Shown here in pieces: positions 15,910 to 48,843 of a stretch of DNA of 64,000 nucleotides. A model generated the notes under the pieces. That model had not been told where the DNA came from, made no database searches, and worked only from the letters and a program-made list of their open reading frames with translations. The first letter of the stretch is position 1. The number at the start of each line of letters is the position of its first letter. The translations under genes and the position numbers were made by a program. The DNA lies in contig JABWCL010000002.1 in the NCBI GenBank assembly GCA_013360295.1, positions 1 through 64,000 on the forward strand. The letters are read 5' to 3'. Origin of the DNA: Ignavibacteriaceae bacterium (GTDB lineage: Bacteria; Bacteroidota; Ignavibacteria; Ignavibacteriales; Ignavibacteriaceae).

Positions 15910-16507
15910 ACTTTTTATAGTCCTGTTATTATCAGCGCTTTTTGCGGGCTGTGCTTCTACTGGAGAGCCGCTTAATGTGACAATCCAATCTCGGGAGGTG
16001 TGGAACGCCACTCCCCCGCGCCCATTTAAAGTACACGTTCCGGATAAAATCACCGTTCATCACGAAGGGACTTTCTTCGATCCCGCGAAGCACAATGCCG
16101 CAGACCACATAAAGCGTGTGCAGACCTGGGGAATGGGGCCGGACAGGAAATGGATTGATATTCCCTATCACTTCCTCATTGATTTTGATGGTGTTATTTA
16201 CGAAGGGAGAAATGTCTTTACCGTTGGGGAAACCAATACTGAATATGATCCTTCCGGTCACCTGCTCATCTCGTGCCTCGGGAATTTTGAAGAACAGGAA
16301 GTCGGGGAAAAAACACTAAATGCCCTGACTGAGCTGCTCGCATATTCGTGCAAAAAATATGATATCAGCCCTGACTCCATAAAGACGCATCGCGACTACG
16401 CAAAAACATCCTGCCCCGGGAAAAATATGTATAAATACTTTTCTGACGGGACGATGGTAAAGCGAGTTAAAGAAATCCTTAAATCACGGCAGATTCAAGG
16501 AATCTGA
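15893..16507 (+). CDS. PGRP-type N-acetylmuramoyl-L-alanine amidase lipoprotein
   Basis: A predicted lipoprotein: MKVHYRLFIVLLLSALFAGC ends in a lipobox (LFAGC). The mature part is a zinc amidase of the PGRP/Amidase_2 fold that cuts the bond between muramic acid and the stem peptide. The zinc ligands are seen in KITVHHEGT and near the end in KTHRDYAKTSCPGKNMY. Residues around YHFLIDFDGVIYEGRN are typical. The ATG at 15893 is preferred to a TTG 27 bases upstream because it begins the signal peptide directly. It runs into an LD-carboxypeptidase from the other strand, with a 29-base overlap of the two 3' ends. Confidence 0.9.
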   Translation: MKVHYRLFIVLLLSALFAGCASTGEPLNVTIQSREVWNATPPRPFKVHVPDKITVHHEGTFFDPAKHNAADHIKRVQTWGMGPDRKWIDIPYHFLIDFDGVIYEGRNVFTVGETNTEYDPSGHLLISCLGNFEEQEVGEKTLNALTELLAYSCKKYDISPDSIKTHRDYAKTSCPGKNMYKYFSDGTMVKRVKEILKSRQIQGI

Positions 16508-17420
16508 TCCTTTTCTTTTTCGGGGAGATCTTAATATTTATGCCAAAAGGAATCGTATGGTTTCTTTTAATATGTCCGTGCGGGAAGTTGGTAACAAAAG
16601 GCACATTCAGTCGCCCAAAATAATCAGTGAAGACCTCTTCCGCGGTAAGTGTCCGTTTTTCCTTATCCGGTTCCTCTGAATCGGAAAATACGCCTGCAAT
16701 CAATCCATTTACCCTGTCCCAGCCTTTCAGGAGCATTAACTGATTCAGCAACCTGTCAATCCTGTAAGGCGGTTCACCGATATCTTCAGTGAGTACAATT
16801 TTATTTTTTAAGGAAGGTAAATAAGGCGTCCCCGCGCTCGCGGAGAATAATGCCAGGTTTCCGCCTATTATTCTTCCCTCTGTATCTTTATCTCCGTGAA
16901 AAATTGTCTCACGTCCTTCATCCGGAGTAAAGTCACCGGGAGCTTTATCCGAAGTAACCATTCTCCAGAAAATCTCCTCTGTATATTTTTCCACCGATGA
17001 ATGGAAGTCAACCGCGGCCATCGGCCCGGCAAACGTTACAAGTCCGCACCTGGCAAGAAAAGCCATCTGGAGGGATGTAATATCGCTGTACCCGACAAAT
17101 ATCTTAGGGTTTTTACTGATAATTTTATATGAAATCTTCCCTAATAATCTCGGAGAACCATAACCGCCTCTGAGACAAATGACAGCCTTAACATTTTTAT
17201 CACCAAACATATCGTGCAGGTCTTCAAGCCTCTCCTCATCAGTTCCCGCGAGATATCCGTGATACTTCCCGAGGTGCTTTCCCGGTTTCACCCGGTAACC
17301 AACAGATTCGAAGTATTTTACCGCTCTTTCGATGCGTGTCAGGTCATCGGGTGAAGACGCTGGTGAGATCAATCCTATTATATCACCCTTATTTAATTTT
17401 GCTGGTTTTACGACTTTCAT
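16479..17420 (-). CDS. LD-carboxypeptidase (peptidase family S66)
   Basis: A 313-residue member of the LdcA/MccF serine peptidase family, which removes the terminal D-alanine from tetrapeptides during murein recycling in the cytoplasm. The protein begins with PAKLNKGDIIGLISPASSP. It shows ICLRGGYGSPRLL and the nucleophile motif FVGYSDITSLQ, and later GRIIGGNLALFSAS and the conserved glutamate-containing VLTEDIGEPPYRID. No signal peptide is present. It converges with the PGRP amidase, another peptidoglycan enzyme. The 20 bases before its ATG separate it from the Pho-box-like array, which by orientation more likely serves the plus strand. Confidence 0.92.
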   Translation of the reverse strand: MKVVKPAKLNKGDIIGLISPASSPDDLTRIERAVKYFESVGYRVKPGKHLGKYHGYLAGTDEERLEDLHDMFGDKNVKAVICLRGGYGSPRLLGKISYKIISKNPKIFVGYSDITSLQMAFLARCGLVTFAGPMAAVDFHSSVEKYTEEIFWRMVTSDKAPGDFTPDEGRETIFHGDKDTEGRIIGGNLALFSASAGTPYLPSLKNKIVLTEDIGEPPYRIDRLLNQLMLLKGWDRVNGLIAGVFSDSEEPDKEKRTLTAEEVFTDYFGRLNVPFVTNFPHGHIKRNHTIPFGINIKISPKKKRIRFLESAVI

Positions 17421-17439: not shown

Positions 17440-17478
17440 TTAACAATTAGATAACAATAGTTTAATACTGGCTTAACA
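17440..17478 (+). promoter_or_regulatory. Pho-box-like array (four hexamers, 11-bp period)
   Basis: Four TTAACA-like hexamers lie on the plus strand at exact 11-bp spacing: TTAACA at 17440, ATAACA at 17451, TTAATA at 17462 and TTAACA at 17473, each separated by 5 bases. This matches the known PhoP box of Bacillus (TT[ACT]ACA repeats with about 5-base spacers). A -10-like TAAATTTA begins at 17488, leaving 9 bases between, as expected when such boxes replace the -35 element. The direction points toward the OlsF-like gene. The pattern is seen in the sequence; its function is inferred. Confidence 0.72.
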
Positions 17479-17487
17479 CAAAAATAA

Positions 17488-17495
17488 TAAATTTA
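17488..17495 (+). promoter_or_regulatory. Putative -10/-7 element of the olsF-like operon
   Basis: TAAATTTA starts 10 bases after the last Pho-like hexamer ends. It shares TAAATT with the -10 elements proposed at 37586 and 37750 and is close to the Bacteroidota TAnnTTTG consensus. Transcription would start near 17502. Confidence 0.5.
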
Positions 17496-17531: not shown

Positions 17532-17723
17532 ATGAATAATCGGTATTTATCAAACGCTATAATAGCCGGTATTATAATGTTCTTTTCATTGGGGCGGGGA
17601 GAAATGATTCCTTTCGCTGTAACGTCAGTATTAGTCGCGGTCTTTATTTTTCTCACCGTTTCAAACAGCCGTTCGGGTGGCGAACAAATTTCTGGAATTA
17701 TTCAGGCAGGCGGCCGGTCATAA
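17532..17723 (+). CDS. Possible small membrane protein
   Basis: An open frame of 63 codons begins with ATG shortly after the Pho-like promoter and encodes two hydrophobic stretches (residues 8-20 and about 26-43) followed by a polar tail. GGAAACTGGAAA just before the ATG is only a weak ribosome site. The position between a regulated promoter and the acyltransferase gene makes a small membrane protein plausible. No family is recognised, and a non-coding leader is equally possible. Confidence 0.35.
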   Translation: MNNRYLSNAIIAGIIMFFSLGRGEMIPFAVTSVLVAVFIFLTVSNSRSGGEQISGIIQAGGRS

Positions 17724-17904: not shown

Positions 17905-19656
17905 ATGCATAAAATTGATATCTCCGAAGTAATTCTCAAAAAAAATCCGAATTTTCTTGGGTGGATGCCCCGGCTTTTCCGGAAGACTGCTCTTTATCTG
18001 ATCGGTAAAGTTCTCATTATCGATAAGATAAACACCTTCCGAAGGGAAAATTCACACAAGAACGGTATTGATTTCATTGATGAAGCCTTTGATTACCTCG
18101 ATTTTTCCTACACGATTTCAAAGCGGGACCGCGACAGGATTAAAAGTGAAGGAAGAGTCGTGATTGTAGCGAATCATCCTCTCGGCGGACTTGACGGGCT
18201 CGCGTTGGTTAAACTAGTGTCTGAGATTCGGCCCGATGTTAAGGTTGTCGTAAACGATTTTCTTGCAAACTTATCCAATCTTAACAGCGTGTTCCTGCCT
18301 TTTGACATTACTTTTTCAAGACCGCAAAAAAGCAATTTTATCAGAATAAAGGAAACTTTACTAAAAGAGTCTGCGGTAATTTTCTTCCCAGCCGGGAAGG
18401 TCTCTCGTTTCAGGTTCTCCGGTATTAAGGATGATGTGTGGCATAAGGGATTCCTCCATTTCGCGAGACAAACTAACTCCCCAATCCTCCCTGTGCATAT
18501 CACCGCAAAGAATTCTTTCTTCTTTTATATGATCGGAGCAATCAGCGACAGGCTCTCAATGTTGCTCCTTGCCAGGGAAATTTATAATAAAAAAGGAAAG
18601 ACAATAGAAATTAAAGTCGGAGAGATAATACCATTCAAAGCTGTGGAGGATATCAAACAGGAGAAAGTAGCACTGAAACTCCTGAAAAAACACGTGAATC
18701 TGATAGGTAAAGGAAAGCGAGGGATCTTCAGAACAGAGAGAAATATTATTCATCCCGTTAATCGTCAGTTGCTGAAACGTGAACTTCTTTCAAACGAAAT
18801 GCTGGGACGTACATCTGATAATAAATTAATGTTGCTTTTGAAAGCTGACCACAACGAAAATGTAATGAATGAGATAGGCCGCCTGAGAGAATTAACTTTC
18901 AGGAAAGTCGGCGAAGGTACAGGGCGAAAATCAGATACTGATCTGTACGACAAAACATACAAACATCTTGTTCTCTGGGATGAAGAAGCGCTTGAGATAG
19001 TCGGTTCTTATCGCCTCGGTTTCTGTGAGGAAATACTAGGTAAATCCGGTCCTTTTGGCCTTTACACCGCAAGTTTATTTAATTTTTCCGATGTTTTTCT
19101 TGAAACGCTCCCACAATCAATCGAACTGGGAAGAAGCTTTGTACAGTCACGTTACTGGAATACAAATGCGTTAGATTATCTTTGGCAGGGGCTTGGTGCA
19201 ATTCTGGCGAAGAATCCGGGTATCAGGTATTTATTCGGACCGGTAAGCCTCAGTAATTCTTATTCTGAGTATTCGAAAAATCTGATTATACATTTCTACA
19301 AAAAGTGGTTCTCTGGTACTAATAACCTGGTCACTGCTAAAAATCGTTTTATCCCCTCCCCTGTTTACAGACAGGAATTTTCTGAGCTTTTTAATAACGA
19401 CGATTACAAGAAGGAACTGTTGATACTAAAAAAAGTGCTGAAGAACAACGGGTTCGCGGTGCCAACTCTTTACAAGCAATATACTGAAGTAACCGAAGCA
19501 GGCGGTTCTGCTTTTCTTGATTTTGGAATTGATCCTGATTTCGGAGATTGTATTGATGGCTTAATTCAGGTTGACATTACAAAAATTAAACCCGGCAAAA
19601 GAGACAGGTACCTTGGCAAAAAAGCCGTGGAAGAATACACGGAGGTATTAGTATGA
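17905..19656 (+). CDS. OlsF-like bifunctional acyltransferase (PlsC-type plus OlsB-type domains)
   Basis: A 583-residue two-domain protein. Residues of about 60-270 form a PlsC-like O-acyltransferase with NHPLGGLD (90-97; spacing H-X5-D rather than the classic H-X4-D) and FFPAGKVSRFRF in place of the usual FPEGTR. Residues of about 300-560 resemble the OlsB-type N-acyltransferase of the GNAT fold (EIVGSYRLG, ELGRSFVQSRYW, YLFGPVSLSNSYS). This architecture and length match OlsF, which makes phosphorus-free ornithine lipids by N-acylating and then O-acylating the amino acid. The exact head group is not certain. The Pho-like boxes upstream fit, since ornithine lipids commonly replace phospholipids under phosphate limitation. 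It overlaps the phosphoesterase by 4 bases. No strong ribosome site is seen at its ATG. Confidence 0.83.
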   Translation: MHKIDISEVILKKNPNFLGWMPRLFRKTALYLIGKVLIIDKINTFRRENSHKNGIDFIDEAFDYLDFSYTISKRDRDRIKSEGRVVIVANHPLGGLDGLALVKLVSEIRPDVKVVVNDFLANLSNLNSVFLPFDITFSRPQKSNFIRIKETLLKESAVIFFPAGKVSRFRFSGIKDDVWHKGFLHFARQTNSPILPVHITAKNSFFFYMIGAISDRLSMLLLAREIYNKKGKTIEIKVGEIIPFKAVEDIKQEKVALKLLKKHVNLIGKGKRGIFRTERNIIHPVNRQLLKRELLSNEMLGRTSDNKLMLLLKADHNENVMNEIGRLRELTFRKVGEGTGRKSDTDLYDKTYKHLVLWDEEALEIVGSYRLGFCEEILGKSGPFGLYTASLFNFSDVFLETLPQSIELGRSFVQSRYWNTNALDYLWQGLGAILAKNPGIRYLFGPVSLSNSYSEYSKNLIIHFYKKWFSGTNNLVTAKNRFIPSPVYRQEFSELFNNDDYKKELLILKKVLKNNGFAVPTLYKQYTEVTEAGGSAFLDFGIDPDFGDCIDGLIQVDITKIKPGKRDRYLGKKAVEEYTEVLV

Positions 19657-20600
19657 GAATAGCCCACATATCTGATATTCATCTGCATCTCGATAGCCAC
19701 AATACGATGGTCGAAGAATTTTATGTCTTATTAAAAAAAGTTTTGCAAAAGAATCCCGACCATATAGCAATTACGGGAGATATTTCAGACAACGCTCAGA
19801 ATAAGGATCTTGAAATTTGCAGATTGATTCTTGACGACCTGGGGTTGTTAAAACCTCATAAAACCTCGGTTGTTATTGGCAACCACGATATTTATGGCGG
19901 CGTTTTTCACGCGGAAGAAATCTTCAACTTCCCCGAAAAATGCAGGAGCAGGGACTTCGACTCGGGCATATCCAATTTTAATTTTCACTTCCGTGAACTT
20001 TTTACTGAATGTCTGTACGTTTCGGAAAACAACTCTTATCCTTACGCAAAACTTATAAACGATACTCTGATAATTGGATTAAATTCCAATATTCCCTACT
20101 CGCAGATACAAAATCCTTTCGCTTCGAATGGTTTAATAAATGCATTACAAAGAGAGGAAATGCTACAGATATTACAGGACTTCTCAAGATACAGTAAACA
20201 TATCATTATTCTTGTACATCATCATTTTAACCGGATAAAATCAGGTTCATCCCGCATTCTCCAGACTGTGTGGAATAATATAGAGAAGCAAACAATGAAA
20301 CTGCGAAAGAAAAAAGTTTTGTTTAATATTTTTAATGAGTTCAAGGTAGATCTGGTTCTCCACGGGCATCTTCACGAACAGGGGAATTATGTAAGAAAGG
20401 GAATAAAATTTCTCAATTCTGGTGGAAGCCTTAAGAATAATGATCACCTCCTGAACTTCAACATCATAGACTTAACAAAAAACGGCATTGCAATTGAACA
20501 GCACTCTATTCCTTTTGACAAGTCCAAATTCCACAGCGACAAGCACATCACAGAATACCGCAGGATGGCTGAACAGGTAGATGCACGTATAGCCGTCTGA
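19653..20600 (+). CDS. Calcineurin-like metallophosphoesterase
   Basis: A cytoplasmic metallophosphoesterase of 315 residues with the complete two-metal site: AHISDIHLHLD, ITGDISDN, VVIGNHDIYGG, ILVHHHFNRI and VLHGHLHEQG. Its ATG overlaps the acyltransferase stop by 4 bases and has an excellent ribosome site (GGAGGT), so the two proteins are probably made together. The context suggests a part in lipid or phosphate metabolism, such as releasing a phosphate group from a lipid or nucleotide. That is inference; the family has very broad substrates. Confidence 0.88.
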   Translation: MRIAHISDIHLHLDSHNTMVEEFYVLLKKVLQKNPDHIAITGDISDNAQNKDLEICRLILDDLGLLKPHKTSVVIGNHDIYGGVFHAEEIFNFPEKCRSRDFDSGISNFNFHFRELFTECLYVSENNSYPYAKLINDTLIIGLNSNIPYSQIQNPFASNGLINALQREEMLQILQDFSRYSKHIIILVHHHFNRIKSGSSRILQTVWNNIEKQTMKLRKKKVLFNIFNEFKVDLVLHGHLHEQGNYVRKGIKFLNSGGSLKNNDHLLNFNIIDLTKNGIAIEQHSIPFDKSKFHSDKHITEYRRMAEQVDARIAV

Positions 20601-20764: not shown

Positions 20765-23647
20765 TTACTTCAGTAAAGTCATTTTCTTAGTCACGGTGTA
20801 GTTGTTAGTAACTAACTGATATAAATAAATACCTGAGGCAAGTCCCGCGGCATTAAAATTAACTGAATGCCTGCCCGCGGTCAGGTCACCTGAGAAAAGT
20901 GTGGCGACCTGCTGGCCAAGCATATTGTAAACTACAAGAGATACATCTGACTGCTCAGCAATATCAAAAGTAATAGTTGTTGCTGGATTAAACGGATTAG
21001 GATAGTTCTGCATCAGGTTAAACTTATCAGGGACTACAGTACTTCCGCTGTTAATCTCTTTAACATCAGTAAGAATGTAGTTCGCCGGATTAAAGTTTGC
21101 CCAGCCCATAGTCCAGTCTGTAGAGTCAAAAGCGCCGACAAAATTGCTTCCTCTTGCCTCAAAGAAAGGATCAGCAGGAACAGCAGTTCCTCCGGTAAGT
21201 ACCGGTGAACCTGATTTTGCCGTGAACGAAGGTGCAGCGAGGTTAAACGGATCGTTTAACATTAATTCAGCGCTTGTAGTTAGTATTCTGCCGGAATTAG
21301 TTGTTGTAAACCAGGCAGCCGGATCCCATGATAAATTAGGTGAACCGGTGGTATCTATTGCCTTTGTAGTAGCTCCGGCAATAATACTGTTCTTCAGATA
21401 GTTTGTACCATTAATAGCGCCGTTGATCGTACCGCTCCTGTCAAGAAGTACACCTGTAGGCCAGCCAACTATAACGGAGTTACCAATCTTGTTCTGGGAA
21501 TTTCTTCTTAAGTGCATTCCTCTTCTGTAAAGGCTGTTAATGGTAGTTGCGTCGGTTGCCTTCGGGCCAACCATAGTTACGTTCCACCACGTTGGCGCGG
21601 TTAAAGGTGTATTGGAAGATCCTGTTCCGTCATTATCAGATTCGAAACCGTTCGATTGTGACTGGTCTGCGATCAGAGGATCTCTCATAGCAACCAGGAA
21701 CTGAAGCTTACCATTAAAACCAAAGTCGGTATCAAAATCATCATCCCATCCGCGGAATGCGATAAGATATTTTGCATTTACATTTCCGCCAAACCATTCG
21801 AATGAATCATCGCCGCTATAGCTGACCTGAACATATTCGACTGTTGTCCCGCTTCCGACGCCGCCGAAAGTAAGACCGTTGATCTCATTATTCGGGGAGA
21901 AAGCGATACCGGGATATTCAATTCTTACATATTTCAAGGTTCCGCTGTTGTCATTCGGATTTGATCCGCCGTATGCATCACCGGGTCCTTCAATTGCAGC
22001 CCTTCCGCCGGGGACGTTGATCGGAGCGTTACCAAGAATAATAACTCCGCCCCAGTCACCGTATCTGGGTGCGCGTGATGAGCCCTGTTTTGTGAATTCA
22101 CTTGTGAAAATGATCGGTTTTTCTTTTGTTCCGGCAGCTTGAATCTTTCCTCCGGGTTTAATAATAAGAGAGCCCTGTGTAGCAGTCTCACCGAAAATTA
22201 TTGTTCCCGGCTCGATCGTGAGTGTCACAAGCGAGTCAACTCTTACAAAACCTCTGAGGAGATACGATTTATCTGCGGTTAAAGTCCTGCTGGTTGAAAT
22301 ATTACCTTCAAGAACAACCTGACCCGAAACATTTGTAACCACATAGTTTACCGGATTCCAGTTAGCCCAGCCCATAGTCCAGTCAGTGCTATCAAAAGCG
22401 CCAACGTGATTGCTCCCTCTGGTGTCAAAGAACGGATCAGCAGGAACTGCTGCCGCGCCGGTGAGAACAGGTGATCCTGCTTTAGCAGTCAGCCCGGGGG
22501 CTGTAAGATTAAATGGATCGTTGAGCATTACCGCTGAATTTTCGGTGAGAATTCTTCCCGAATTTGTTGTTGTGAACCATGCGGCAGGATCCCAGCTGAG
22601 ATTCGGAGAACCGGTAGTATCAACCGCTTTGGTCGTAGCTCCGGCAATTATGCTGTTCTTTATATAGTTAGTTCCGTTTATTGCACCGTTGATCGTTCCG
22701 CTTCTGTCAAGCAGGATACCGGTAGGCCATCCCATTATAACTGCATTCCCGATCTTATTCTGGGAATTTCTTCTGAGATGCATACCTCTTCTGTATAAAC
22801 TGTTAACAGTTGTTGAGGACGCAGCTTTTGGTCCGATCATTGTTACATTCCACCACGTCGGAGCGGTCAGAGGAGTGTTTGAAGAACCGGTTCCGTCGTT
22901 ATCTGATTCAAAACCGTTCGACTGTGACTGATCAGCGATGAGCGGATCCCTGATCGCAACCAGATACTGAAGTTTACCGCTATAGCCAAAATCTGAATCA
23001 AAGTCATCATCCCAACCGCGGTGAGCGATGAGGTATTTGCAGTTAACATTACCACCAAACCATTCGAATGAATCGTCGCCGCTGTAACTTACCTGCACAT
23101 ATTCTACAGTTGTGCCGCTACCTACTCCGCCGAAAGTTAAACCGTTAATTTCGTTATTCGGAGAAAAAGCAATACCGGGATATTCGATTCTTACATACCT
23201 TAAAGTACCGCTGTTATCGTTTGGATTGGAGCCGCCGTAGGCATCACCGGGGCCTTCAATTGCTGCCCTACCGCCGGGTACGTTTATCGGGGCATTACCA
23301 AGTATAATTACTCCTCCCCAGTCACCATATCTTGGAGCGCGTGAGGAACCCTGCTTCGCGAATTCACTTGTGAATACGATCGGCTTTTCTTTGGTTCCTG
23401 AAGCTTCAATTTTTCCGCCCGGCTTAATAATTAGCGAACCCTGGGTTGCAGTTTCACCAAAGATTACAGTTCCCGGCTGGATTGTTAACGTTACTAGAGA
23501 GTCAACCCTGACAAATCCTCTCAATAAATATGAATTGTTTGCAGTTAAGGTTCTATTTGAGGAGATGTTCCCCTCCAACACAATTTGAGCATTGGCAGAC
23601 ATCATCAGAATGCCTATCCAGATGAACATTAGTGCTTTTTTTGACAT
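20765..23647 (-). CDS. Secreted protein with two near-identical large repeats and T9SS sorting tail
   Basis: A 960-residue exported protein: signal peptide (1-20), two tandem repeats of about 420 residues (roughly 21-440 and 443-865), and a type IX sorting domain at the C-terminus (NLMQNYPNPFNPATTITFD, then a terminal KKMTLLK). The repeats are about 90% identical in protein but differ often at silent positions. Within each, TIQPGTVIFGETATQGSLII and GDWGGVIILGNAPIN suggest right-handed beta-helix-like structure; an acidic SGDDSFEWFGGNVN and GWDDDFDSDFG segment could bind cations. The catalytic role is unknown. It lies 17 bases after the TonB receptor gene, has an AAAGGAA ribosome site, and shares that operon's Pho-like promoter. 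It is probably a surface or secreted partner of the receptor. Confidence 0.85.
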   Translation of the reverse strand: MSKKALMFIWIGILMMSANAQIVLEGNISSNRTLTANNSYLLRGFVRVDSLVTLTIQPGTVIFGETATQGSLIIKPGGKIEASGTKEKPIVFTSEFAKQGSSRAPRYGDWGGVIILGNAPINVPGGRAAIEGPGDAYGGSNPNDNSGTLRYVRIEYPGIAFSPNNEINGLTFGGVGSGTTVEYVQVSYSGDDSFEWFGGNVNCKYLIAHRGWDDDFDSDFGYSGKLQYLVAIRDPLIADQSQSNGFESDNDGTGSSNTPLTAPTWWNVTMIGPKAASSTTVNSLYRRGMHLRRNSQNKIGNAVIMGWPTGILLDRSGTINGAINGTNYIKNSIIAGATTKAVDTTGSPNLSWDPAAWFTTTNSGRILTENSAVMLNDPFNLTAPGLTAKAGSPVLTGAAAVPADPFFDTRGSNHVGAFDSTDWTMGWANWNPVNYVVTNVSGQVVLEGNISTSRTLTADKSYLLRGFVRVDSLVTLTIEPGTIIFGETATQGSLIIKPGGKIQAAGTKEKPIIFTSEFTKQGSSRAPRYGDWGGVIILGNAPINVPGGRAAIEGPGDAYGGSNPNDNSGTLKYVRIEYPGIAFSPNNEINGLTFGGVGSGTTVEYVQVSYSGDDSFEWFGGNVNAKYLIAFRGWDDDFDTDFGFNGKLQFLVAMRDPLIADQSQSNGFESDNDGTGSSNTPLTAPTWWNVTMVGPKATDATTINSLYRRGMHLRRNSQNKIGNSVIVGWPTGVLLDRSGTINGAINGTNYLKNSIIAGATTKAIDTTGSPNLSWDPAAWFTTTNSGRILTTSAELMLNDPFNLAAPSFTAKSGSPVLTGGTAVPADPFFEARGSNFVGAFDSTDWTMGWANFNPANYILTDVKEINSGSTVVPDKFNLMQNYPNPFNPATTITFDIAEQSDVSLVVYNMLGQQVATLFSGDLTAGRHSVNFNAAGLASGIYLYQLVTNNYTVTKKMTLLK
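21070..23587 (-). repeat. Tandem intragenic duplication of about 1.26 kb
   Basis: The coding DNA from about 23587 down to 22330 is repeated from about 22325 down to 21070. The protein products align nearly without gaps. Codons often differ while residues are kept, for example throughout the segment ending INVPGGRAAIEGPGDAYGG in both copies. Confidence 0.88.
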
Positions 23648-23664: not shown

Positions 23665-26439
23665 TTAGAATTGATAAGTTAATGAAACTGAATACTGGGA
23701 CGCCGTTTTGTATCTTTCGGCGACTTTCTCTCCCAAAGGAGTTTTTTGTATAAATCTATAATCCTGAGCGAACATATCGCGAACCAACAACTTGACCGAG
23801 AGCATATCGAATAGTTTTTTACTGACCGACAGGTCCACAACTTCCCTTGCTTTCTCAATTACATCACCAAGACCTGCATAACCGACTTTCGCGATCCTGT
23901 CGCCTACTTTATTATATACAAGAGAAGCAGATAAGTCATTATCATAATCATCGTAGTATATACCGGTATTAAGGATAAAATCTGCCTGTCCCTGAAGCGG
24001 CCGCTTGGATGCCTGGAATGTTGAAGTTGAAGCATCATCAGTAAGTTTTATTTCAGATTTGATGAAGCTGAGATTACCGACTATCGAGAATTTTTCGACC
24101 CAGGAGTGTATAAAGCGCAGCGATTTACGAAGTTCAAATTCCACTCCGTAATTAACAGCCTCTTTAGCATTTGTGAATGAACGGATCGGATCATAAGATG
24201 CGACGATCAGGATCTGCTCTATTGGTTTTTCAAATTTCTTATAAAAAAGACTGACCGCAGCTAACTCACCGGGGCCCGGGTATGTTTCGAAGCGCAGATC
24301 ATAATTATTGATGAGTGTTCTTTCCAGAGAAGTGTCGCCCATTACGAGTTCGTTTGCAACAAAATCATAATAGCTGTATGGCGCTAATTCCCGGAACTCA
24401 GGCCTTGCCAGTGTCTGGGTGAAAGCAGCGCGAATATTTGAGTTTTCAGTTAACCTGTAGGTTAGATTAAGGCTTGGAAGATAATCGGTATTCTCTTTCA
24501 CTACATTAACGGGACTTCCTGTAATGGACCTGCTCTGAAGCACCTGCTTAGACTGTTCCATTCTGACTCCGCCGATCAGTTTTAATTCAGCAAGAACATC
24601 AAAATCGAACATCAGGTAGGTACCGAAAATATCCTGACGAGTATCGTAACTGTCACTTGGTTTTGTAAGTTCCTGGATCTGAATGAATGTATTCGTAAAG
24701 TGTTCAGGAACAAATATTTTATCAACCGGACCCATAAGCACAGTATCTTCATAAAAGAAATCACCAAACGGCAGGTTTTTGAAACCGAATGACCTTGCAT
24801 CGAATTCACGCTCTTTCTTGTCAAGCAGAAAGCCAAACTTAAACTTCGGCATCGTGGGGGATTCAAAGGGTTTTACGGTAAAATCTGTGTTGAATCCGTA
24901 AATGACATCATCAAGTTTACCATAAAAGCGGGTTGCAATAGATGGATCTAACTGAAAACGGAGAGGGTCTCCCGGTTCGTCAACAGAGTTACGATAAGAA
25001 TAATTTCTTGCGTCCGGTTCATCCCTTTTTGATTTCGAATAACTTGCGTTCCATTCAAAATTTACACCATACAGAAGATCAAAGAAATGCGCGCCCAGCA
25101 ACTGATGAGAGATTAAAGAGCGGGAAACAAATCTCAAACCTGTGTTTTCACGGTACTGCCCGCCGTAGTAATCTTCCCCTTTATAGAAACTTGTTACATC
25201 CTCACCGTCCTGATTGTATATATTCTTAAAACTTATTTTGTTTGTGCCCAGGAACTTATAACTTAAATTTACCAGCGCTCCCCAGGTAACTGTCCGCGAA
25301 TAGATCTCTCCGTCATATTCATATTTGGTACCCTGGTAATCGTAATTGTTTTTTTCCAGATTCCTCACATCAAATGAGCTTGAATAAGATAAAGAACCAA
25401 CTACACCAATTAGACCGGCTTCTTCGAGGTCATACTTGTCACCCAGGCTGAGTTTGAAGCTTCCGTTAAAAGGAGACTCGGTCTTCGAAGTGCCCCAATT
25501 ATTCTTGAATGTTTTACCGTAAAACTGGAGTACACTGTCTTTCAGTGCATTGGAAAGCCTCAGGTCGCCTATAGCTGAGGGGATTTGCCTGTCCCCTGCA
25601 TCAAAGCCAAGGTGGTCAGATTTACTCCCGGAGTAAGTCATAAACTTAGAAAGATTGTTTTCCCGGTCATATCCGCCGGAAAAATTAAGATCGAAAAAGA
25701 ATTTTTGGGGAAATTCAAGAGTCTGGATCTGAACCAACCCACCTGAAAAATCAGCAGGTTTATCGGGGGTGAATGTTTTAGCCGTCATCACATTTTCGAT
25801 GAGGCTCGCGGGGAAGATATCATAAGAGAAACTTTTCTTCTCCGGGTCAGTACTTGGGAGGTTCGCGCCGTTAAGCATTGTATTGTTGTACCGGTCACCT
25901 ATTCCGCGTATCACAGCGAATTTCCCGTCAGATATCGTAACACCGGTCATACTTTTGAGAACGTCAATACCGGTTGAATTATTATTCTTTTTGATCAGCT
26001 CGCTGCTGAGGCCGTCAACTATATTAAGAGAATTTCTTTGCATTTTCAGAATCCCCGCTTCGCTGTTTTTAAGAGCTTCTGCCGTGATCACAACTTCCTC
26101 AAGCTCTGTAGATATTGGACTAAGCGAGATATCTACTTTTGTTTCCTTCCCTGCAACAACACGAACGTTCTCGATGTTCATAGACTGGTATGAAACATAA
26201 GATATCTTTATAGAATATGTCCCCTCGGGAAGATTACGGATCAGATACGTACCATCAATGTCGGAGGCAGCGCCTAATGGTGTCCCCACGACAATGACAT
26301 TAGCTCCAATCAAGTCCTCATTGGTGGTTTTATCGGTTATTTTTCCCGAAATAGTGCCTTTTTGCTGGGCCCGAAACTGAGTTATTGAAAAAACTGAGAA
26401 AAAGATTAGTGTTAAGAAAATGTAATTATATTTGAACAT
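23665..26439 (-). CDS. TonB-dependent outer-membrane receptor with carboxypeptidase-regulatory-like domain
   Basis: A 924-residue outer-membrane transporter of the Bacteroidota type. A signal peptide (1-25) is followed by a CarboxypepD-reg-like beta-sandwich (about 27-115; GTISGKITDKTTNEDLIGAN). The plug domain follows (about 125-240; LKSMTGVTISDGKFAVIRG, GDRYNNTMLNGANLPS), then a large beta-barrel ending in an aromatic residue (SLTYQF). It imports an unknown substrate using TonB energy. No SusD-like partner is next to it; the secreted repeat protein lies downstream instead. Four Pho-box-like hexamers end 51 bases upstream of the ATG, so I infer induction by phosphate limitation. The ribosome site is AAAAGG. 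Confidence 0.92.
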   Translation of the reverse strand: MFKYNYIFLTLIFFSVFSITQFRAQQKGTISGKITDKTTNEDLIGANVIVVGTPLGAASDIDGTYLIRNLPEGTYSIKISYVSYQSMNIENVRVVAGKETKVDISLSPISTELEEVVITAEALKNSEAGILKMQRNSLNIVDGLSSELIKKNNNSTGIDVLKSMTGVTISDGKFAVIRGIGDRYNNTMLNGANLPSTDPEKKSFSYDIFPASLIENVMTAKTFTPDKPADFSGGLVQIQTLEFPQKFFFDLNFSGGYDRENNLSKFMTYSGSKSDHLGFDAGDRQIPSAIGDLRLSNALKDSVLQFYGKTFKNNWGTSKTESPFNGSFKLSLGDKYDLEEAGLIGVVGSLSYSSSFDVRNLEKNNYDYQGTKYEYDGEIYSRTVTWGALVNLSYKFLGTNKISFKNIYNQDGEDVTSFYKGEDYYGGQYRENTGLRFVSRSLISHQLLGAHFFDLLYGVNFEWNASYSKSKRDEPDARNYSYRNSVDEPGDPLRFQLDPSIATRFYGKLDDVIYGFNTDFTVKPFESPTMPKFKFGFLLDKKEREFDARSFGFKNLPFGDFFYEDTVLMGPVDKIFVPEHFTNTFIQIQELTKPSDSYDTRQDIFGTYLMFDFDVLAELKLIGGVRMEQSKQVLQSRSITGSPVNVVKENTDYLPSLNLTYRLTENSNIRAAFTQTLARPEFRELAPYSYYDFVANELVMGDTSLERTLINNYDLRFETYPGPGELAAVSLFYKKFEKPIEQILIVASYDPIRSFTNAKEAVNYGVEFELRKSLRFIHSWVEKFSIVGNLSFIKSEIKLTDDASTSTFQASKRPLQGQADFILNTGIYYDDYDNDLSASLVYNKVGDRIAKVGYAGLGDVIEKAREVVDLSVSKKLFDMLSVKLLVRDMFAQDYRFIQKTPLGEKVAERYKTASQYSVSLTYQF

Positions 26440-26472
26440 AAAAAAACCTTTTAAATTTTATCCATCGACGCC

Positions 26473-26480
26473 CCAAGTTA
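26473..26480 (-). promoter_or_regulatory. Putative -10/-7 element of the TonB receptor operon
   Basis: TAACTTGG on the minus strand begins 9 bases after the last Pho-like hexamer, the same distance as in the olsF-like promoter. The match to TAnnTTTG is imperfect. Confidence 0.42.
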
Positions 26481-26489
26481 GGTTTCTAA

Positions 26490-26528
26490 TGTTAAGGAAT
26501 TGTTAAGAGGATGTTAACTTAATGTTAA
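26490..26528 (-). promoter_or_regulatory. Pho-box-like array (four perfect hexamers, 11-bp period)
   Basis: Four perfect TTAACA hexamers lie on the minus strand, seen as TGTTAA on the plus strand at 26490, 26501, 26512 and 26523. The period is exactly 11 bases and each spacer is 5. This is the arrangement of PhoP boxes and, with different core bases, of PhoB boxes. The array faces the TonB receptor gene, whose ATG is at 26439. The exact spacing is seen directly; regulation by a PhoB/PhoP-type protein is inferred. Confidence 0.8.
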
Positions 26529-26821: not shown

Positions 26822-29461
26822 TTACTTTATTAATGATAATTTTTTAACTGACCGGTACTCCCCGGCTTCCATCTCATAAAAATATAAACCGGAAGAATAG
26901 CCCGAAGCATCCCACGATGTGAAGAAAGTCCCCTGCGGAGATTCATTATCAACAAGAAGAGCGATCTTCTCGCCAAGTATATTATAAACAGAAATCCTGA
27001 CGTGAGACGCATCTGGCACCTGATACTTTATTGTAGTCGCAGGATTAAATGGATTTGGGTAATTCTGAAAAAGATAAAATTCATCAGGCGCCAAAATTTC
27101 CTCCTCTGTAGACGTAATTAACGAATCAATCGTCAACTGGTGAGCGCCAATCCCATTATTAGTGGCGAGGACATAAAGTATATAGATATTATCCTGATAA
27201 TGGCGAAGTGCTACATCGCCTGAAGCTCCTGTCGTATTAATATTATCGCCAAGTGAAGGGGTTGTCTCGAACAACACTGCGGAAGCGAGGCCGTTAGTGA
27301 TATCGAGCACTTTTGCATTTTCATTCGGGAAACCGTACTGAAACGTTGCGATAAACTTACGCCCGCTGGCTTCAAAGTACCTTATCGCGTTGCTTCTGCT
27401 GTCAATGAGATTGGCAGGTAGAGTTGAGACTGTTACTCCGGCGTCCGTGTGCTCTCTGGGGAGGATACTGTTACCATTCACAATTATGTTGGTTGATCCG
27501 GTCCGTCGCGTTACCGAAGGATTCGTTCCTGAATTGGTAAAACCACTGAGCGTGATTTCGGTAGGTGTCTGATTGAAACCTGTACCTGACATCCTCCATT
27601 TGAGTACTTTATTCGATGAATTAACCGCGGCGTAAACAACTGCGCTGCTGTCCGCGAATGAACCCGTAATTGTAAATTTATCACCGAGCCGGTATGCTGC
27701 TGCTGAATAATTGATTATCTCTTCCGGTTGCGCGCTCTCGGATGCCCATTTATAAACTTTGAAAGGAGTACTATTAGCCCCTGTAGTAAGATTTGCGGCT
27801 ACGATTATTCCATCATCAGTGACATCAACATCATTAAGCGTGTAGGTACCTCCGGTGATGCCGGACTGATTCATTGTTCCTAAAAGATCTCCGTTATCGG
27901 CATTTAGGATCGACAGGTTCGGCCGGTTAACTACATAAAGGTGATTCGTAAATTTAGAGTAACCTAGCCCGCGCTCAGTGTTACCCGTGGCTGAAAACCA
28001 GGAAGGGAGATTATTCGTGGCATCGCATAATGTCCACACAGGTATGATATTGCCGGTCACGGTAACCGCAATAGTATCCGCGAGATTATTCAATCTCCCG
28101 ATAATGTATCCGCTCCCGGTAGAGGAGGGTTTAAAGAATCCAAGAGAATCAACGCTTCCCTGAATACCTCTTACTTCCCATACAATATCCGTTGCCCTGA
28201 GTTCCACAGGATACCCGTAAAGATCAACACCGCCGACATTTATTTTTTTTGTTTGAGTTGAGTCCATAAAAATTGATTCAGGCTTAAGATCAAGACTATC
28301 AGTAATATCACGTGATTCTATTTCAAGCACCGCAAGCAAAGCATTTCCGCAGGACCGCTCTCCGCCTGCATCCGAAGGGCTGTTTACAACTTTCCCCCTG
28401 ATCACCATAGTAGTGGATCCGCCGCCGTCCAGATTAAGCGCCTGATAACATCCGATGGAAAGCATATAGGCTGCCATCTGAGGTAATGACATACCTACTG
28501 AAAAACCTGCTTGCCTGCCGTCGACTGTAACTAAGTAGAACCTTGTGCTGTCCTGATTCAGACCCACAGCAGTGCGTGGATGCACGTTCGGATCAATCCC
28601 TGAATTGATAACCCCATTAGTTATCATCCTAGGCGAGCCGGAGATTAGTTCAACCAGGTCACCGCGGGAAGGATTCGAGTTGATTCTGATTCTCAGAGTA
28701 TCGCCGGTGAAAACAAGCGAGTCGAGATACGCTTTGGCGTTCCCCCTCCCGGAGAGGACATACTCGGTTTCCGTAAAAGACATATTCCCTGTACCGCTGA
28801 CTTTACTCTGAACGACAAATTTATTGATCTGGTTAACCGCGAATTCATCCACAGGTTTAAGTTTAATTTCTGTTACGTTGCCCGCAGTTTTTGTTGAGGT
28901 CCCCATAAATTTATTATAAAGAATCAGTCCGTTTGCTTTTACCGTATCATTGAATCCGGTAAGGGAGAATACAGAATCACTCACAGATGTGACGTTCCCG
29001 CCGAATCCAAGATCATCAAAAATGACCTTATTATCGGGCCTGAACGCAACAGAAGGCCGCTTATTTGTGTGTCCCTGCGCATACTCACGATTGGTTATCT
29101 GTGATCCCGTAAGAAAAGTATACGGATTGGATGAATTTGATATCCCGAAAAAGTCGCCATTAACCGCGCCGATAACAATGTTCCCACTCCTGCTTGAACG
29201 CGCTGCCATAGAGGAAGTTTTTTCAAATCCCTGCCCCAACACATCTTTGGCAAGCACGGTTTTAAGTTTGTTCTTCGGCTGAGAAATATCTATCTCAAGA
29301 ATTTTAATATTGAAAGGTCCGGACGTTTTATAGACTGAATGATAATAAAAGCCGGGGCCGACTAAAGTTTTAGTGGAATCCTGTGAATAGGTTTTTTGTG
29401 GGAAGGATGAAAGTAACAATAAAAAGAACGAAAGTGTAATCAGTCGCATTTCAGGTACCAT
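26822..29461 (-). CDS. Secreted phosphodiester glycosidase (NAGPA domain) with T9SS sorting tail
   Basis: An 879-residue exported protein. After a signal peptide (to about residue 27) comes an NAGPA-type phosphodiester glycosidase domain (about 50-380) with IVIGAVNGDFFG, HPRTAVGLNQD, YLVTVDGRQAG and ALNLDGGGSTTM. Enzymes of this type uncap sugar-1-phosphodiesters, such as those on glycans or teichoic-acid-like polymers. A middle region (about 470-770; NLPSWFSATGNTERGLGYS) resembles a beta-propeller-like DUF4623 module, and a type IX sorting tail ends the protein (FQNYPNPFNPATTIKY). Either ATG at 29461 or ATG at 29449 could be the start. It may release phosphate-linked sugars outside the cell, which would suit the neighbouring Pho-like operon, but it has no such box itself. 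Confidence 0.85.
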   Translation of the reverse strand: MVPEMRLITLSFFLLLLSSFPQKTYSQDSTKTLVGPGFYYHSVYKTSGPFNIKILEIDISQPKNKLKTVLAKDVLGQGFEKTSSMAARSSRSGNIVIGAVNGDFFGISNSSNPYTFLTGSQITNREYAQGHTNKRPSVAFRPDNKVIFDDLGFGGNVTSVSDSVFSLTGFNDTVKANGLILYNKFMGTSTKTAGNVTEIKLKPVDEFAVNQINKFVVQSKVSGTGNMSFTETEYVLSGRGNAKAYLDSLVFTGDTLRIRINSNPSRGDLVELISGSPRMITNGVINSGIDPNVHPRTAVGLNQDSTRFYLVTVDGRQAGFSVGMSLPQMAAYMLSIGCYQALNLDGGGSTTMVIRGKVVNSPSDAGGERSCGNALLAVLEIESRDITDSLDLKPESIFMDSTQTKKINVGGVDLYGYPVELRATDIVWEVRGIQGSVDSLGFFKPSSTGSGYIIGRLNNLADTIAVTVTGNIIPVWTLCDATNNLPSWFSATGNTERGLGYSKFTNHLYVVNRPNLSILNADNGDLLGTMNQSGITGGTYTLNDVDVTDDGIIVAANLTTGANSTPFKVYKWASESAQPEEIINYSAAAYRLGDKFTITGSFADSSAVVYAAVNSSNKVLKWRMSGTGFNQTPTEITLSGFTNSGTNPSVTRRTGSTNIIVNGNSILPREHTDAGVTVSTLPANLIDSRSNAIRYFEASGRKFIATFQYGFPNENAKVLDITNGLASAVLFETTPSLGDNINTTGASGDVALRHYQDNIYILYVLATNNGIGAHQLTIDSLITSTEEEILAPDEFYLFQNYPNPFNPATTIKYQVPDASHVRISVYNILGEKIALLVDNESPQGTFFTSWDASGYSSGLYFYEMEAGEYRSVKKLSLIK

Positions 29462-45357: not shown

Positions 45358-46743
45358 CTATTTATGAAATTTCTTTATGAACTCTTCCACCTCAGGTAGC
45401 CCTCCCTGATACACCAGGTATCCATTGTAAGGTTCGCGTTTAGTAATATCATCACATATAGGTGTAAGCATTATCCGTTTTACTTCCTCCGGCACATTCG
45501 TCTGCCCCAAAGCCCAGCCTAATTTGATATAAGCTACTTCAGGCAGCATATTGGCGGCAGGAACAATTCCCTTTGCCATAAGGTCACGTCCGGTATCGTA
45601 AACAAACATATGAACATATCCCCATAAGGTCTGAACTGTCATATATATATGTACACCTTTCTTAGCCGCGCGTTCTATCGCCGGGTAAATCGGTTTATTT
45701 ACGTGCCCTAATCCTGTACCCGCGATAATTATTCCCTTGTAACCATTGTCGACCAGAGAGTCAATAATATCCGGGAACATATTCGGATAATAGTAAACCA
45801 TCGCGACTTTCTCCTCAAACACCGGCGTAATAACCACTTTCCTGTCTTTCCTCCTGTGGTTATACTCCTTCTTTATCGGTTTGACGCCTTTTGTTGTTAC
45901 GGTTGCTAAGGGCGTGTCGCCGATAGTTCTGAAAGTGGATCTGTATGAGGAATGCATTTTACGAACGCGGGTGCCTCGGTGCAGCAAACCGTATTCATCG
46001 GATGTAGGGCCAAACATACTCACCATCACTTCGGCGATATCACCGTGACCGGCAGCATACGCAGCGTGCTGAAGGTTGAGAGCGGCATCGGAACTGGGAC
46101 GGTCCGAAGATCTCTGTGAACCAACAAGAATGATAGGAACCGGCGGATTCTGCACCATAAAAGAAAGAGCCGTTGCTGTATGATGAAGAGTGTCTGTTCC
46201 GTGTCCGATTATGATGCCGTCAATTCCGTTTTCGATTTCCTTACCGATCGCAACAGCAAGTTTTTTATACTGCTCCGGCCCCATATTCTCACTGAACACA
46301 GCAAAAAGTTTTTCTGTCGTAAGGTTGCAGATTTTAGCTAGTTCAGGAACAGCGCCGTAAAGTTCCCCGGGAGAGAATGCGGGTATTACTGCTCCGGTAC
46401 GGTAATCTAGCCTTGAAGCGATTGTTCCGCCGGTACCAAGAAGTTTTACCTTTGGCAATCCCTTCGTATACGGAAATTCCTTTTCGGGTATTTTATATAC
46501 CGCCTTTTTATATCCGGTTTCAATAATACCGGTTATTGTATCAATGTCTATTCCGATATTGTAGCCTGTAGGGATCTTTACAACAATGTGTAAATCATCG
46601 TCATTTTCGGCCCTGGGAAGTACAGTTCCTAAAAACTTTCCTCTTGTGGAATCAATCTCCACCTGACCCCAAACCCTGATATTATACTTCATCAGAGTTT
46701 CAAGCGCGCGTCCTTTATAACCTTGAAAAATGTCATCTGCCAT
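45358..46743 (-). CDS. gatD: Glutamyl-tRNA(Gln) amidotransferase subunit D (archaeal type)
   Basis: GatD is the asparaginase-like subunit that frees ammonia from an amide donor for GatE. The 461-residue protein has the GatD N-terminal extension (about 1-90; GYKGRALETLMKYN, LPRAENDDDLHIVVKIPTGYNIG), absent from plain asparaginases. The asparaginase core then shows KLLGTGGTIASRLDY with the first catalytic Thr at about residue 104, IIIGHGTDTLHHTATALSF with the second, and VGSQRSSDRPSSDAALNL. The C-terminal LPEVAYIKLGWALGQT matches GatD. The gatE gene lies directly upstream. GatDE is described as archaeal, which makes it remarkable here. Confidence 0.93.
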   Translation of the reverse strand: MADDIFQGYKGRALETLMKYNIRVWGQVEIDSTRGKFLGTVLPRAENDDDLHIVVKIPTGYNIGIDIDTITGIIETGYKKAVYKIPEKEFPYTKGLPKVKLLGTGGTIASRLDYRTGAVIPAFSPGELYGAVPELAKICNLTTEKLFAVFSENMGPEQYKKLAVAIGKEIENGIDGIIIGHGTDTLHHTATALSFMVQNPPVPIILVGSQRSSDRPSSDAALNLQHAAYAAGHGDIAEVMVSMFGPTSDEYGLLHRGTRVRKMHSSYRSTFRTIGDTPLATVTTKGVKPIKKEYNHRRKDRKVVITPVFEEKVAMVYYYPNMFPDIIDSLVDNGYKGIIIAGTGLGHVNKPIYPAIERAAKKGVHIYMTVQTLWGYVHMFVYDTGRDLMAKGIVPAANMLPEVAYIKLGWALGQTNVPEEVKRIMLTPICDDITKREPYNGYLVYQGGLPEVEEFIKKFHK

Positions 46744-46878: not shown

Positions 46879-48843
46879 TTAAACCTGAATAATTCTTTTC
46901 CGTAGTTCTCTCAGATCAACATTCCCCTCCGCGACCCTGCGCAACTGGCCCATTATCCAATTTGTACAGGCATCGGGGGATTCAGATTTATGATCTTTCA
47001 TAAAGCGCTGCTTAAGAAAACCTATTCTCGCTGCGATATCATCCTTGCTGCTTTTTCGGAAGCGGATACTCTCAAGTATGGAGTTAAAGTCCATATTCGG
47101 GTGCTCATAGATGAGAGGAAGCATCCTTACCGCCAGATCAAACTGCAGTTTCTCCTTTTTTAGGAAAGAAAAAAGATCGAAGATCAAATCATAATTGAAG
47201 TCGGGCGAAGCAGTATAATGCCCTTCAACATACTTTAGCCTGTGACCAAAAAATAAACCGGTAAACTTCGGGAAAACTCTGAGCTGAGTGTGTATCTTTT
47301 CTATAACCGGAAAAAGGTTCTTTCTGAAGATGTATGTAAATGTGTCCTCAGGTACTTCCCACTCCTTCAGTCTGTGATAAAAAATTATCACATCATCCGG
47401 CAAATTATTTCTTATCTGTTCGATATATTCATTTGAGAGAGGAATCGCGGCAGAATCCGTATCGGGATACATTCTGTCCGCCCCTGGAAGGACACGCTCA
47501 AAAATTGTTGTACCATCGGGGTAAGATTTTCTTGTTTCTTTCGGTACTCCTTCAAATGCCATCCTGCATCTTTCGCTGATCGTTTCAAGAGCGGTAGTGA
47601 TATCTTCCTCAGGACCCCAGAATATTAACTGCGCGTCACCTTTTTTTACACCAAGTATTTCCTTTATTTTATCCCATTCAAACGGGCTTATCATCTGCAT
47701 AAAGTCTTCTGAATGAGTCATATTAGGTTTTTCTAAACAGGCAATCACTTTCAAACGGTTGGTCAGTTCATCCGCGAAGGTCTTTCCGGGCTGGAGAAAA
47801 TGGGAGAGTATCCCCGCGAATCCGGGAAGATTCACTGCTACGACCTTGTACTTTTGTCCCCCTTCCTTCTCCATAAGTTGGAGGCGGAGGACTTTTTTAT
47901 CAATATAACTCCAATCGGTTTTCCAGGAAGCATAGTCACTTATTCTGTCCAGCAGCTTTTTCCGGATCGCGAGCAGCGCCCATTGCCTGAAGGCTTCATT
48001 ATGAGTCAGTTTAGGAATCCACTTGATTCGTGATACTCCTTTTATCTCTACTCTTGATCCGCCCGCGCAGCTAACGTTAACATCCTGCCGTGAAGCCCCC
48101 ATGCCAGTACGCACGTTGCCGGTGCTCCTGTTGAGGAAACGGATGTAGTTACAAGTTTCAGCAACCTCGTTTGGATTCACGCATTCGGGGTGTGTTACTA
48201 CTTCGATCAGCGGCATACCAAGCCTGTCAGTTTTATACACTCTTACGTGGCCGATATCCGATATTTCCCGGCAGGAATCTTCTTCAATGCTTAATTGTAT
48301 CAGCCTTATTTTTTTGTGTGACAAAGGAAGTTCGCCGCCAACTCCGATAATTGCAGTCCGCTGAAATCCAGTAGGTATGCTTCCGTCAAGATACTGTTTC
48401 CTGGTTATGTGGACTTCCCCCACGATATTCATTTTACAGAGCATTGCAATCTTTAAGGAGATCCCCAGAGCTTCCCTGTTTATCGAAAAAGGCGGTGTGT
48501 CATCAACTTCATATGTACAGGTAGTTACATTCTTAATGTGATAGATAATTTCTTTCCGTGTTCTGAACTCCATAAGCGCTGTACCGTCATATTCTCCCAA
48601 CTCACTCAGAGTCGGTCTCATATGCCGGATGAGTTCCGCGTCGTAGTCGTCACTATTCTGAAATACTCCTGCGGGACAGTGGCAGAACAGTTTTTCTTTG
48701 GTTAAGAGTTGCTGGTGGACTTCAAGCCCGGACATAAATCCGATCCTGTCGTAATCTTCCTGGGTGGCTTTGTTCAGAGGTACATACCCTATTTCACGAA
48801 GAGTGTTTTCGTAGTTCTCGTGAGGGTTAATTGGATTCTGCAT
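46879..48843 (-). CDS. gatE: Glutamyl-tRNA(Gln) amidotransferase subunit E (archaeal type)
   Basis: GatE phosphorylates and amidates the glutamate of Glu-tRNA(Gln) using ammonia from GatD. The 654-residue protein is related to GatB but longer. It has the kinase core start GFMSGLEVHQQL with a metal-site CHCPAG, the GatB/E block PLIEVVTHPE...VRTGMGASRQDVNVS, and the GatE-specific GAD insertion (about 280-410; KGVSRIKW, GPEEDITTALETI). The YqeY-like tail region is at the C-terminus (NWIMGQLRRVAEGNVDLRELR). The gene precedes gatD by 135 bases on the same strand. No Shine-Dalgarno sequence stands out at its ATG. Confidence 0.93.
   Translation of the reverse strand: MQNPINPHENYENTLREIGYVPLNKATQEDYDRIGFMSGLEVHQQLLTKEKLFCHCPAGVFQNSDDYDAELIRHMRPTLSELGEYDGTALMEFRTRKEIIYHIKNVTTCTYEVDDTPPFSINREALGISLKIAMLCKMNIVGEVHITRKQYLDGSIPTGFQRTAIIGVGGELPLSHKKIRLIQLSIEEDSCREISDIGHVRVYKTDRLGMPLIEVVTHPECVNPNEVAETCNYIRFLNRSTGNVRTGMGASRQDVNVSCAGGSRVEIKGVSRIKWIPKLTHNEAFRQWALLAIRKKLLDRISDYASWKTDWSYIDKKVLRLQLMEKEGGQKYKVVAVNLPGFAGILSHFLQPGKTFADELTNRLKVIACLEKPNMTHSEDFMQMISPFEWDKIKEILGVKKGDAQLIFWGPEEDITTALETISERCRMAFEGVPKETRKSYPDGTTIFERVLPGADRMYPDTDSAAIPLSNEYIEQIRNNLPDDVIIFYHRLKEWEVPEDTFTYIFRKNLFPVIEKIHTQLRVFPKFTGLFFGHRLKYVEGHYTASPDFNYDLIFDLFSFLKKEKLQFDLAVRMLPLIYEHPNMDFNSILESIRFRKSSKDDIAARIGFLKQRFMKDHKSESPDACTNWIMGQLRRVAEGNVDLRELRKRIIQV

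Follow-up and report, generated by a model that had tools for sequence, protein, structure and literature searches.

In Bacillus subtilis, the Pho box is described as direct repeats of TT(A/T/C)ACA with a 5+/-2-bp spacer (PMC3036859), and the PHO box of Escherichia coli as direct repeat units of 11 nt, to which PhoB binds in tandem, head to tail; 11-nt direct repeats are given as the usual form of PHO boxes at large (PMC4415409). Among Bacteroidota, a DAP-seq motif reported for PhoP of Riemerella has TTTAACA as its most conserved letters (PMC9603813), and predicted Pho boxes have been reported at plcP clusters of marine bacteria, with flavobacteria among those studied (PMC4796936). The phoBR cluster of Flavobacterium johnsoniae (Fjoh_0543-0546) is described as including a TonB-dependent receptor (TBDT) and the ElpS-related lipoprotein FII (Fjoh_0545/0546), both strongly upregulated at low phosphate; for FI-FIII of this species, 31-36% identity with a low-phosphate lipoprotein of Caulobacter is given (PMC8115612). 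In Caulobacter, phosphate starvation is reported to induce ElpS. The gene order there is elpS (cc0170), the receptor gene cc0171 and the gsp genes (T2SS); according to the same report cc0171 is constitutive, ElpS itself is not a phosphatase, deletion of elpS left phosphatase activity unchanged and its overexpression raised it (PMC2996285).

Here we describe an element of this kind from an Ignavibacteriaceae bacterium. The window, i.e. the whole stretch of 64,000 nucleotides that was analysed (assembly GCA_013360295.1, contig JABWCL010000002.1), contains at 26490-26528 on the minus strand four perfect TTAACA hexamers with 5-base spacers, at 11-bp spacing. To judge from the sequence and its surroundings, this is very probably a Pho box of four half-sites that would drive a phosphate-starvation operon by way of a PhoB/PhoP-type regulator, a degree of confidence that concerns the control of the operon and leaves surface capture or import aside. 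The box and the phosphate-regulated pair are each of known kinds, and membership in the Pho regulon is well supported.

The four-box element and its promoter

Read on the minus strand from 26528 to 26473, the sequence runs TTAACA-TTAAG-TTAACA-TCCTC-TTAACA-ATTCC-TTAACA-TTAGAAACC-TAACTTGG (Table 1). Nine bases (TTAGAAACC) thus lead from the last TTAACA to TAACTTGG, a one-letter variant of TAnnTTTG, and 33 bp from the end of TAACTTGG to the receptor ATG at 26439. We take TAnnTTTG to be the -7 element of Bacteroidota and TAACTTGG to be its variant; T9SS tails and TAnnTTTG promoters fit this phylum. A Pho box is expected to comprise at least two direct repeats in 11-bp register, to lie just upstream of a -10/-7 element and to recur before core phosphate genes. 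The element has four perfect copies in register, stands 9 nt from TAACTTGG (the -7 being assigned from sequence), and is found again before a pstSCAB-phoU operon and in the olsF region.

The original prediction had described four identical TTAACA hexamers with 5-base spacers on the minus strand, facing a TonB-dependent receptor and a secreted repeat protein, and a -10-like element at the same distance as in an olsF-like promoter. All of this is borne out by the sequence, the open reading frames, Pfam and the T9SS tail, and nine bases separate the last box from TAACTTGG here as they do from TAAATTTA at the olsF-side site. It had also considered four in-phase copies unlikely by chance, and pattern searches agree: with at most three mismatches, the four-box pattern has two matches in the window, at 26490-26528 (0 mismatches) and at 17440-17478 on the plus strand (2 mismatches), and 0 matches in 100 dinucleotide shuffles. 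The same search of the whole genome (4.46 Mb, 92 contigs) returned these two window sites only, and the reversed four-box pattern, used as a control, gave 0 matches genome-wide.

At low phosphate, a response regulator of the PhoB/PhoP type would bind the repeats head to tail, take the place of a -33 element and recruit RNA polymerase. The transcript would encode the TonB-dependent receptor and the ElpS-type beta-helix protein with its T9SS export tail. Less certain is a further step in which the beta-helix protein, at the cell surface, would bind a phosphorus-bearing ligand and hand it to the receptor for import.

Table 1. Promoter elements and genes of the receptor and olsF loci; positions are those of the window.
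Feature	Position	Strand	Evidence
Pho half-site 1, TTAACA, distal to gene	26523..26528	-	sequence
Pho half-site 2, TTAACA	26512..26517	-	sequence
Pho half-site 3, TTAACA	26501..26506	-	sequence
Pho half-site 4, TTAACA, gene-proximal, 9 nt before -7 element	26490..26495	-	sequence; profile match 26472-26528, E 9.8e-12
-7-like element TAACTTGG	26473..26480	-	sequence
TonB-dependent receptor, 924 aa (CarboxypepD_reg, plug, barrel)	23665..26439	-	Pfam; TIGR01782 below its cut-off; homologues in relatives
ElpS-type protein, 960 aa, two near-identical repeats, T9SS tail	20765..23647	-	Pfam, tblastn, MAFFT, model
Second Pho-box site, 2 mismatches, 426 bp before olsF	17440..17478	+	pattern search; profile E 1.3e-6
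-7-like element TAAATTTA, 9 nt past last box	17488..17495	+	sequence
OlsF, bifunctional ornithine-lipid synthase	17905..19656	+	NCBIfam NF052615 equivalog, 718 bits vs cut-off 620
Calcineurin-like metallophosphoesterase overlapping olsF end	19653..20600	+	Pfam PF00149, PF12850

The product of OlsF is a phosphorus-free membrane lipid. The metallophosphoesterase gene that follows may encode PlcP, a candidate identity suggested by the common match to PF12850, which is also given for Flavobacterium PlcP in a table of PMC8115612. A possible ORF of 63 aa (17532-17723, plus strand), small and partly hydrophobic, lies between this Pho box and olsF, and on the other side of the box is an S66 LD-carboxypeptidase gene (16479-17420, minus strand), of a kind that recurs near olsF, pst or receptor loci in five relatives (L087, L097, L120, L121, L123). 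Just upstream of the receptor box, the protein encoded by 26822-29461 on the minus strand combines a phosphodiester glycosidase (NAGPA) domain with a T9SS tail; the search for the four-box pattern, three mismatches allowed, gave no separate site for this gene. Elsewhere in the window, GatD and GatE, a tRNA-dependent amidotransferase pair, are encoded on the minus strand at 45358-46743 and 46879-48843 (TIGR02153 and TIGR00134, both over cut-off). The models are archaeal, and the genome is otherwise bacterial-looking.

Distribution of the element in the genome and in relatives

Perfect TTAACA triplets occur at two loci only in the 4.46-Mb genome: the receptor promoter and C28:11039-11066, where 121 bp separate the end of the triplet from pstS, the first gene of a pstS-pstC-pstA-pstB-phoU operon (PstS, PstB and PhoU recognised by Pfam). 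The reversed triplet has no match in this genome at zero mismatches, and all five perfect placements of TTAACA-N5-TTAACA lie within the receptor-promoter and pst loci. Relaxed searches of this genome reached control level: the two-box pattern with at most one mismatch gave 34 matches vs 48 for the reversed control, i.e. no enrichment, and the three-box pattern with at most three mismatches gave 12 vs 13, the control being undivided by mismatch number. Weaker single sites are for this reason indistinguishable from chance. A profile made from 40 sites of relatives, none from this genome and all picked for having a -7-like element, yielded three clear matches: the receptor promoter, pst (E 5.8e-7) and the olsF region, followed by matches of E 0.047 and weaker. 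No downstream same-strand ORF of at least 70 aa was seen within 1.5 kb of the E 0.047 match; the fifth match, a weak one (E 0.21), begins 69 bp upstream of what is probably the ATG of an alkaline phosphatase gene (PF00245).

Triplets with at most one mismatch are present in 88 of 146 relatives (this genome counted in), compared with a reversed-control match in 17 of 146, as counted from the table. Flanks were fetched for part of the triplet-bearing relatives, namely 29 automatically returned loci and 40 regions. Ten of these regions were chosen for a receptor already known there, so as to cover more of the downstream sequence, and their sites, which duplicate ones in the 29, were pooled with them on the basis of sequence. 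The remaining 30 came from the match list and were selected before gene content was known, with perfect matches favoured and one per genome. The fetched loci and the two loci of this genome comprise 66 distinct box sites, 52 of which have a gene of the receptor type or a phosphate-related gene within 700 bp downstream: receptor/ElpS (28), an OprP-like outer-membrane protein (11), pst (6), olsF (2), a phosphonate-binding protein (2), and a Na/Pi cotransporter, PhoU_div and CHAD (one each). Downstream of the remaining 14, no gene of the tested kinds is found within 700 bp. Several of the search queries for target genes were derived from the box loci themselves and then named by Pfam. The OprP-like label is weak, with one representative just below the Pfam Porin_O_P cut-off and another without a match; a gene so labelled heads the pst operon in several loci.

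A set of loci that was not selected for the box was obtained from those ElpS-like matches that had not already been fetched. They provided 40 upstream regions, of which six were dropped because a contig end interrupts the stretch, leaving 34 in which the start of the receptor ORF could be used. In 29 of these the receptor homologue is preceded by a triplet with at most 3 mismatches in 18, in none (0/34) by the reversed control; the five receptor loci without a good box are L163, L186, L193, L198 and L178, the last a truncated locus. When 25 box-selected loci are added, the counts become 54/59 for the box and 4/59 for the reversed control. Four boxes stand in phase at 52 of 77 distinct sites (flanking copies being allowed 2 mismatches), and TAnnTTTG follows the last box within 30 nt at 32 of the 77, at exactly 9 nt in 30 of them, against a mean of 1.8/77 at any offset within 30 nt in a shuffled control. 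Outside the order perfect triplets are rare, with 5 of 355 sampled genomes of the phylum vs 12 of 40 inside (control match in 3/395). One of the five is found in front of a PstC homologue, and another has a receptor homologue on the opposite strand to one side and an unlabelled ORF to the other; for the other three no target was recognised.

It had been proposed in the original prediction that a genome-wide scan should show whether the matches stand in front of pst, phosphatase and phoU-type genes, and that the element marks the receptor as a candidate importer or scavenger of a phosphorus compound. The position of the other perfect triplet before pstSCAB-phoU, the three clear profile matches, the boxes before receptor homologues and the 52 of 66 sites with receptor or phosphate-related genes downstream all support phosphate regulation.

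As to the regulator, the best PhoB match (C48:102192-102863, minus strand) and the best PhoR match (C48:101171-101941, minus strand) are neighbours, both below the curated cut-offs. The closest solved relatives of this regulator include RegX3 and a PhoP receiver domain. No triplet with at most five mismatches occurs in the 3.7 kb around this phoB-like gene. We infer that its product, with the phoR-like kinase beside it, is the best candidate for binding the box.

The receptor, its partner and rival readings

The gene of the ElpS-type protein starts 17 nt past the receptor stop. The two repeats of its product are 88% identical (MAFFT), possibly the outcome of a duplication with later gene conversion; among ElpS-like open frames of relatives, some are of about 960 aa and many of about 540 aa (single copy). 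The sole Pfam match of the partner is Por_Secre_tail. A tblastn search with the protein found relatives in Sphingomonas (E 3e-22) and Indioceanicola (E 1e-46), and in both loci the matching gene is followed by a receptor and gsp genes, i.e. these are ElpS-receptor-T2SS loci. ElpS is a lipoprotein released through T2SS and the partner has a T9SS type A sorting tail in place of this route, so that it is ElpS-like by sequence and not by export.

The model of the first repeat has a mean pLDDT of 70 and a pTM of 0.78, with residues 21-230 mostly above 80. Foldseek returned nothing for it at E <=0.001 (best 1.3e-3); VIA-align, run on the Foldseek candidates, gave Z of about 20-24 (23.8 at most) with right-handed beta-helix proteins such as AlgG and AlgE4. 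The partner is accordingly modelled as a right-handed beta-helix, though likeness of fold does not show function. Eight acidic residues (D191, D192, E195, D213, D214, D217, D219 and E247) are invariant in an alignment of six sequences that includes both repeats of the window protein, and may form a calcium or ligand site. When solved structures were searched by sequence, nothing related to the ElpS-like protein turned up at E up to 1; the only matches to the receptor were two cellulosomal scaffoldin chains (residues 37-109).

An ElpS-like gene adjoins a TonB receptor gene in the window, in all five of the plasmid records that were opened, out of 25 with a match, and in five of five named contigs found by the receptor. 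In two relatives (L112, L125) the pair is followed by pst genes and in a third (L116) it comes after pst-phoU. In a Bacteroidetes contig (L022), genes for a PhoR-like kinase and a PhoB-like regulator (best or near-best NCBIfam matches, below cut-off) diverge from the receptor and ElpS-like genes; the two-box match with one mismatch found there is weak, since such pairs occur at control level. In L089, L090, L091, L099 and L108, the pair precedes genes for a protein about 550 aa long and for a PstS-like one, the former an M28 peptidase by Pfam, which was run on L090 only.

Several other explanations of the element have to be weighed. Chance phasing of an AT-rich hexamer, to which the control-level counts of one-mismatch TTAACA pairs might point, is exceedingly improbable: none of the 100 shuffles reproduced the pattern, and this explanation is refuted by the conservation of the box before receptor homologues (29 of 34 loci). 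Binding of the repeats by another OmpR-family regulator, unrelated to phosphate, is very unlikely as well. OmpR-family sites are generally direct repeats of 10-11 bp, and none of the four full-length PhoB-like regulators in the genome reaches the PhoB cut-off. The Riemerella PhoP motif is, moreover, said to resemble that of ArcA (PMC9603813). Yet among the genes preceded by box sites are those for pst, PhoU_div, OprP-like, phosphonate-binding and Na/Pi proteins and for OlsF, which argues against such a regulator.

It is quite possible, if somewhat less than probable, that the element is a Pho box but the pair imports no phosphorus compound, and instead takes up something co-limiting, for example a metal or a sugar released from a degraded polymer, or acts as a surface sensor. 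By VIA-align (Z up to 23.8), the modelled beta-helix is similar to alginate epimerases, pectinases, polysaccharide lyases and phage tailspikes; ElpS is reported as no phosphatase and its deletion as without a phosphatase phenotype (PMC2996285), and on two alphaproteobacterial plasmids the homologous pair adjoins T2SS genes and not phosphate genes. Against this stands the clustering of the pair in four relatives (L108, L112, L116, L125) with pst genes and with PstS-like and OprP-like proteins. That the receptor imports a phosphorus compound is suggested with less certainty than phosphate control. Against a simple import reading stand the reports that Caulobacter cc0171 is constitutive and that phosphatase activity did not change on elpS deletion, though it rose on overexpression. 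A broader proposal, tentative and on balance rather doubtful, is that ElpS and its TonB receptor form an ancient cross-phylum outer-membrane system under Pho-box control which captures phosphorus polymers or organophosphates: the beta-helix protein would be a SusD-analogous surface receptor that passes the ligand on, exported by T9SS tail, lipid anchor or T2SS depending on lineage.

Comparison with described Pho systems

With phosphate control of the operon as the preferred reading, the promoter grammar (usually four TTAACA, 9 nt, TAnnTTTG) offers a means of predicting, for genomes of a whole order, which genes belong to the phosphate regulon. By sequence alone, it further connects the ElpS-receptor pair, which is poorly understood, with phosphate starvation, in agreement with two distant experimental reports, and makes the function of the pair testable. 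Among open-licence PMC papers, searched by title and the start of the abstract, we found no description of the TTAACA box architecture in Bacteroidota or of its link to an ElpS-receptor pair, which is weak evidence of absence.

The repeats of the window match the PhoP box of B. subtilis in sequence and spacing, but they belong to a T9SS-bearing genome and the last of them stands 9 nt before a -7 element of the TAnnTTTG type. With the PHO box of E. coli they share direct repeats of 11 nt, although the core is CTGTCAT there and TTAACA here. The PusCD systems, described as phosphate-induced SusCD-like complexes, likewise pair a TonB receptor under phosphate control with a partner at the surface (PMC8115612); in contrast, Pfam finds no SusD domain in the partner encoded in the window, and membership in SusCD/PusCD was rejected. 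Caulobacter ElpS and cc0171 are similarly a secreted protein and a TonB receptor, and their order of ElpS, receptor and gsp recurs in the homologous loci of Sphingomonas and Indioceanicola. ElpS, described as a lipoprotein released with the help of T2SS, differs from the T9SS-tailed partner, the likeness being drawn via the loci of relatives. The partner likewise differs from that of F. johnsoniae in its T9SS tail and its tandem duplication, the two being likened by the descriptions of the Fjoh genes. Nevertheless, Fjoh_0545/0546, described as a receptor followed by an ElpS-related exoprotein of pectin-lyase fold under phosphate regulation, correspond to the pair reported here, and the arrangement in the Bacteroidetes contig L022 is like that given for Fjoh_0543-0546 (PMC8115612).
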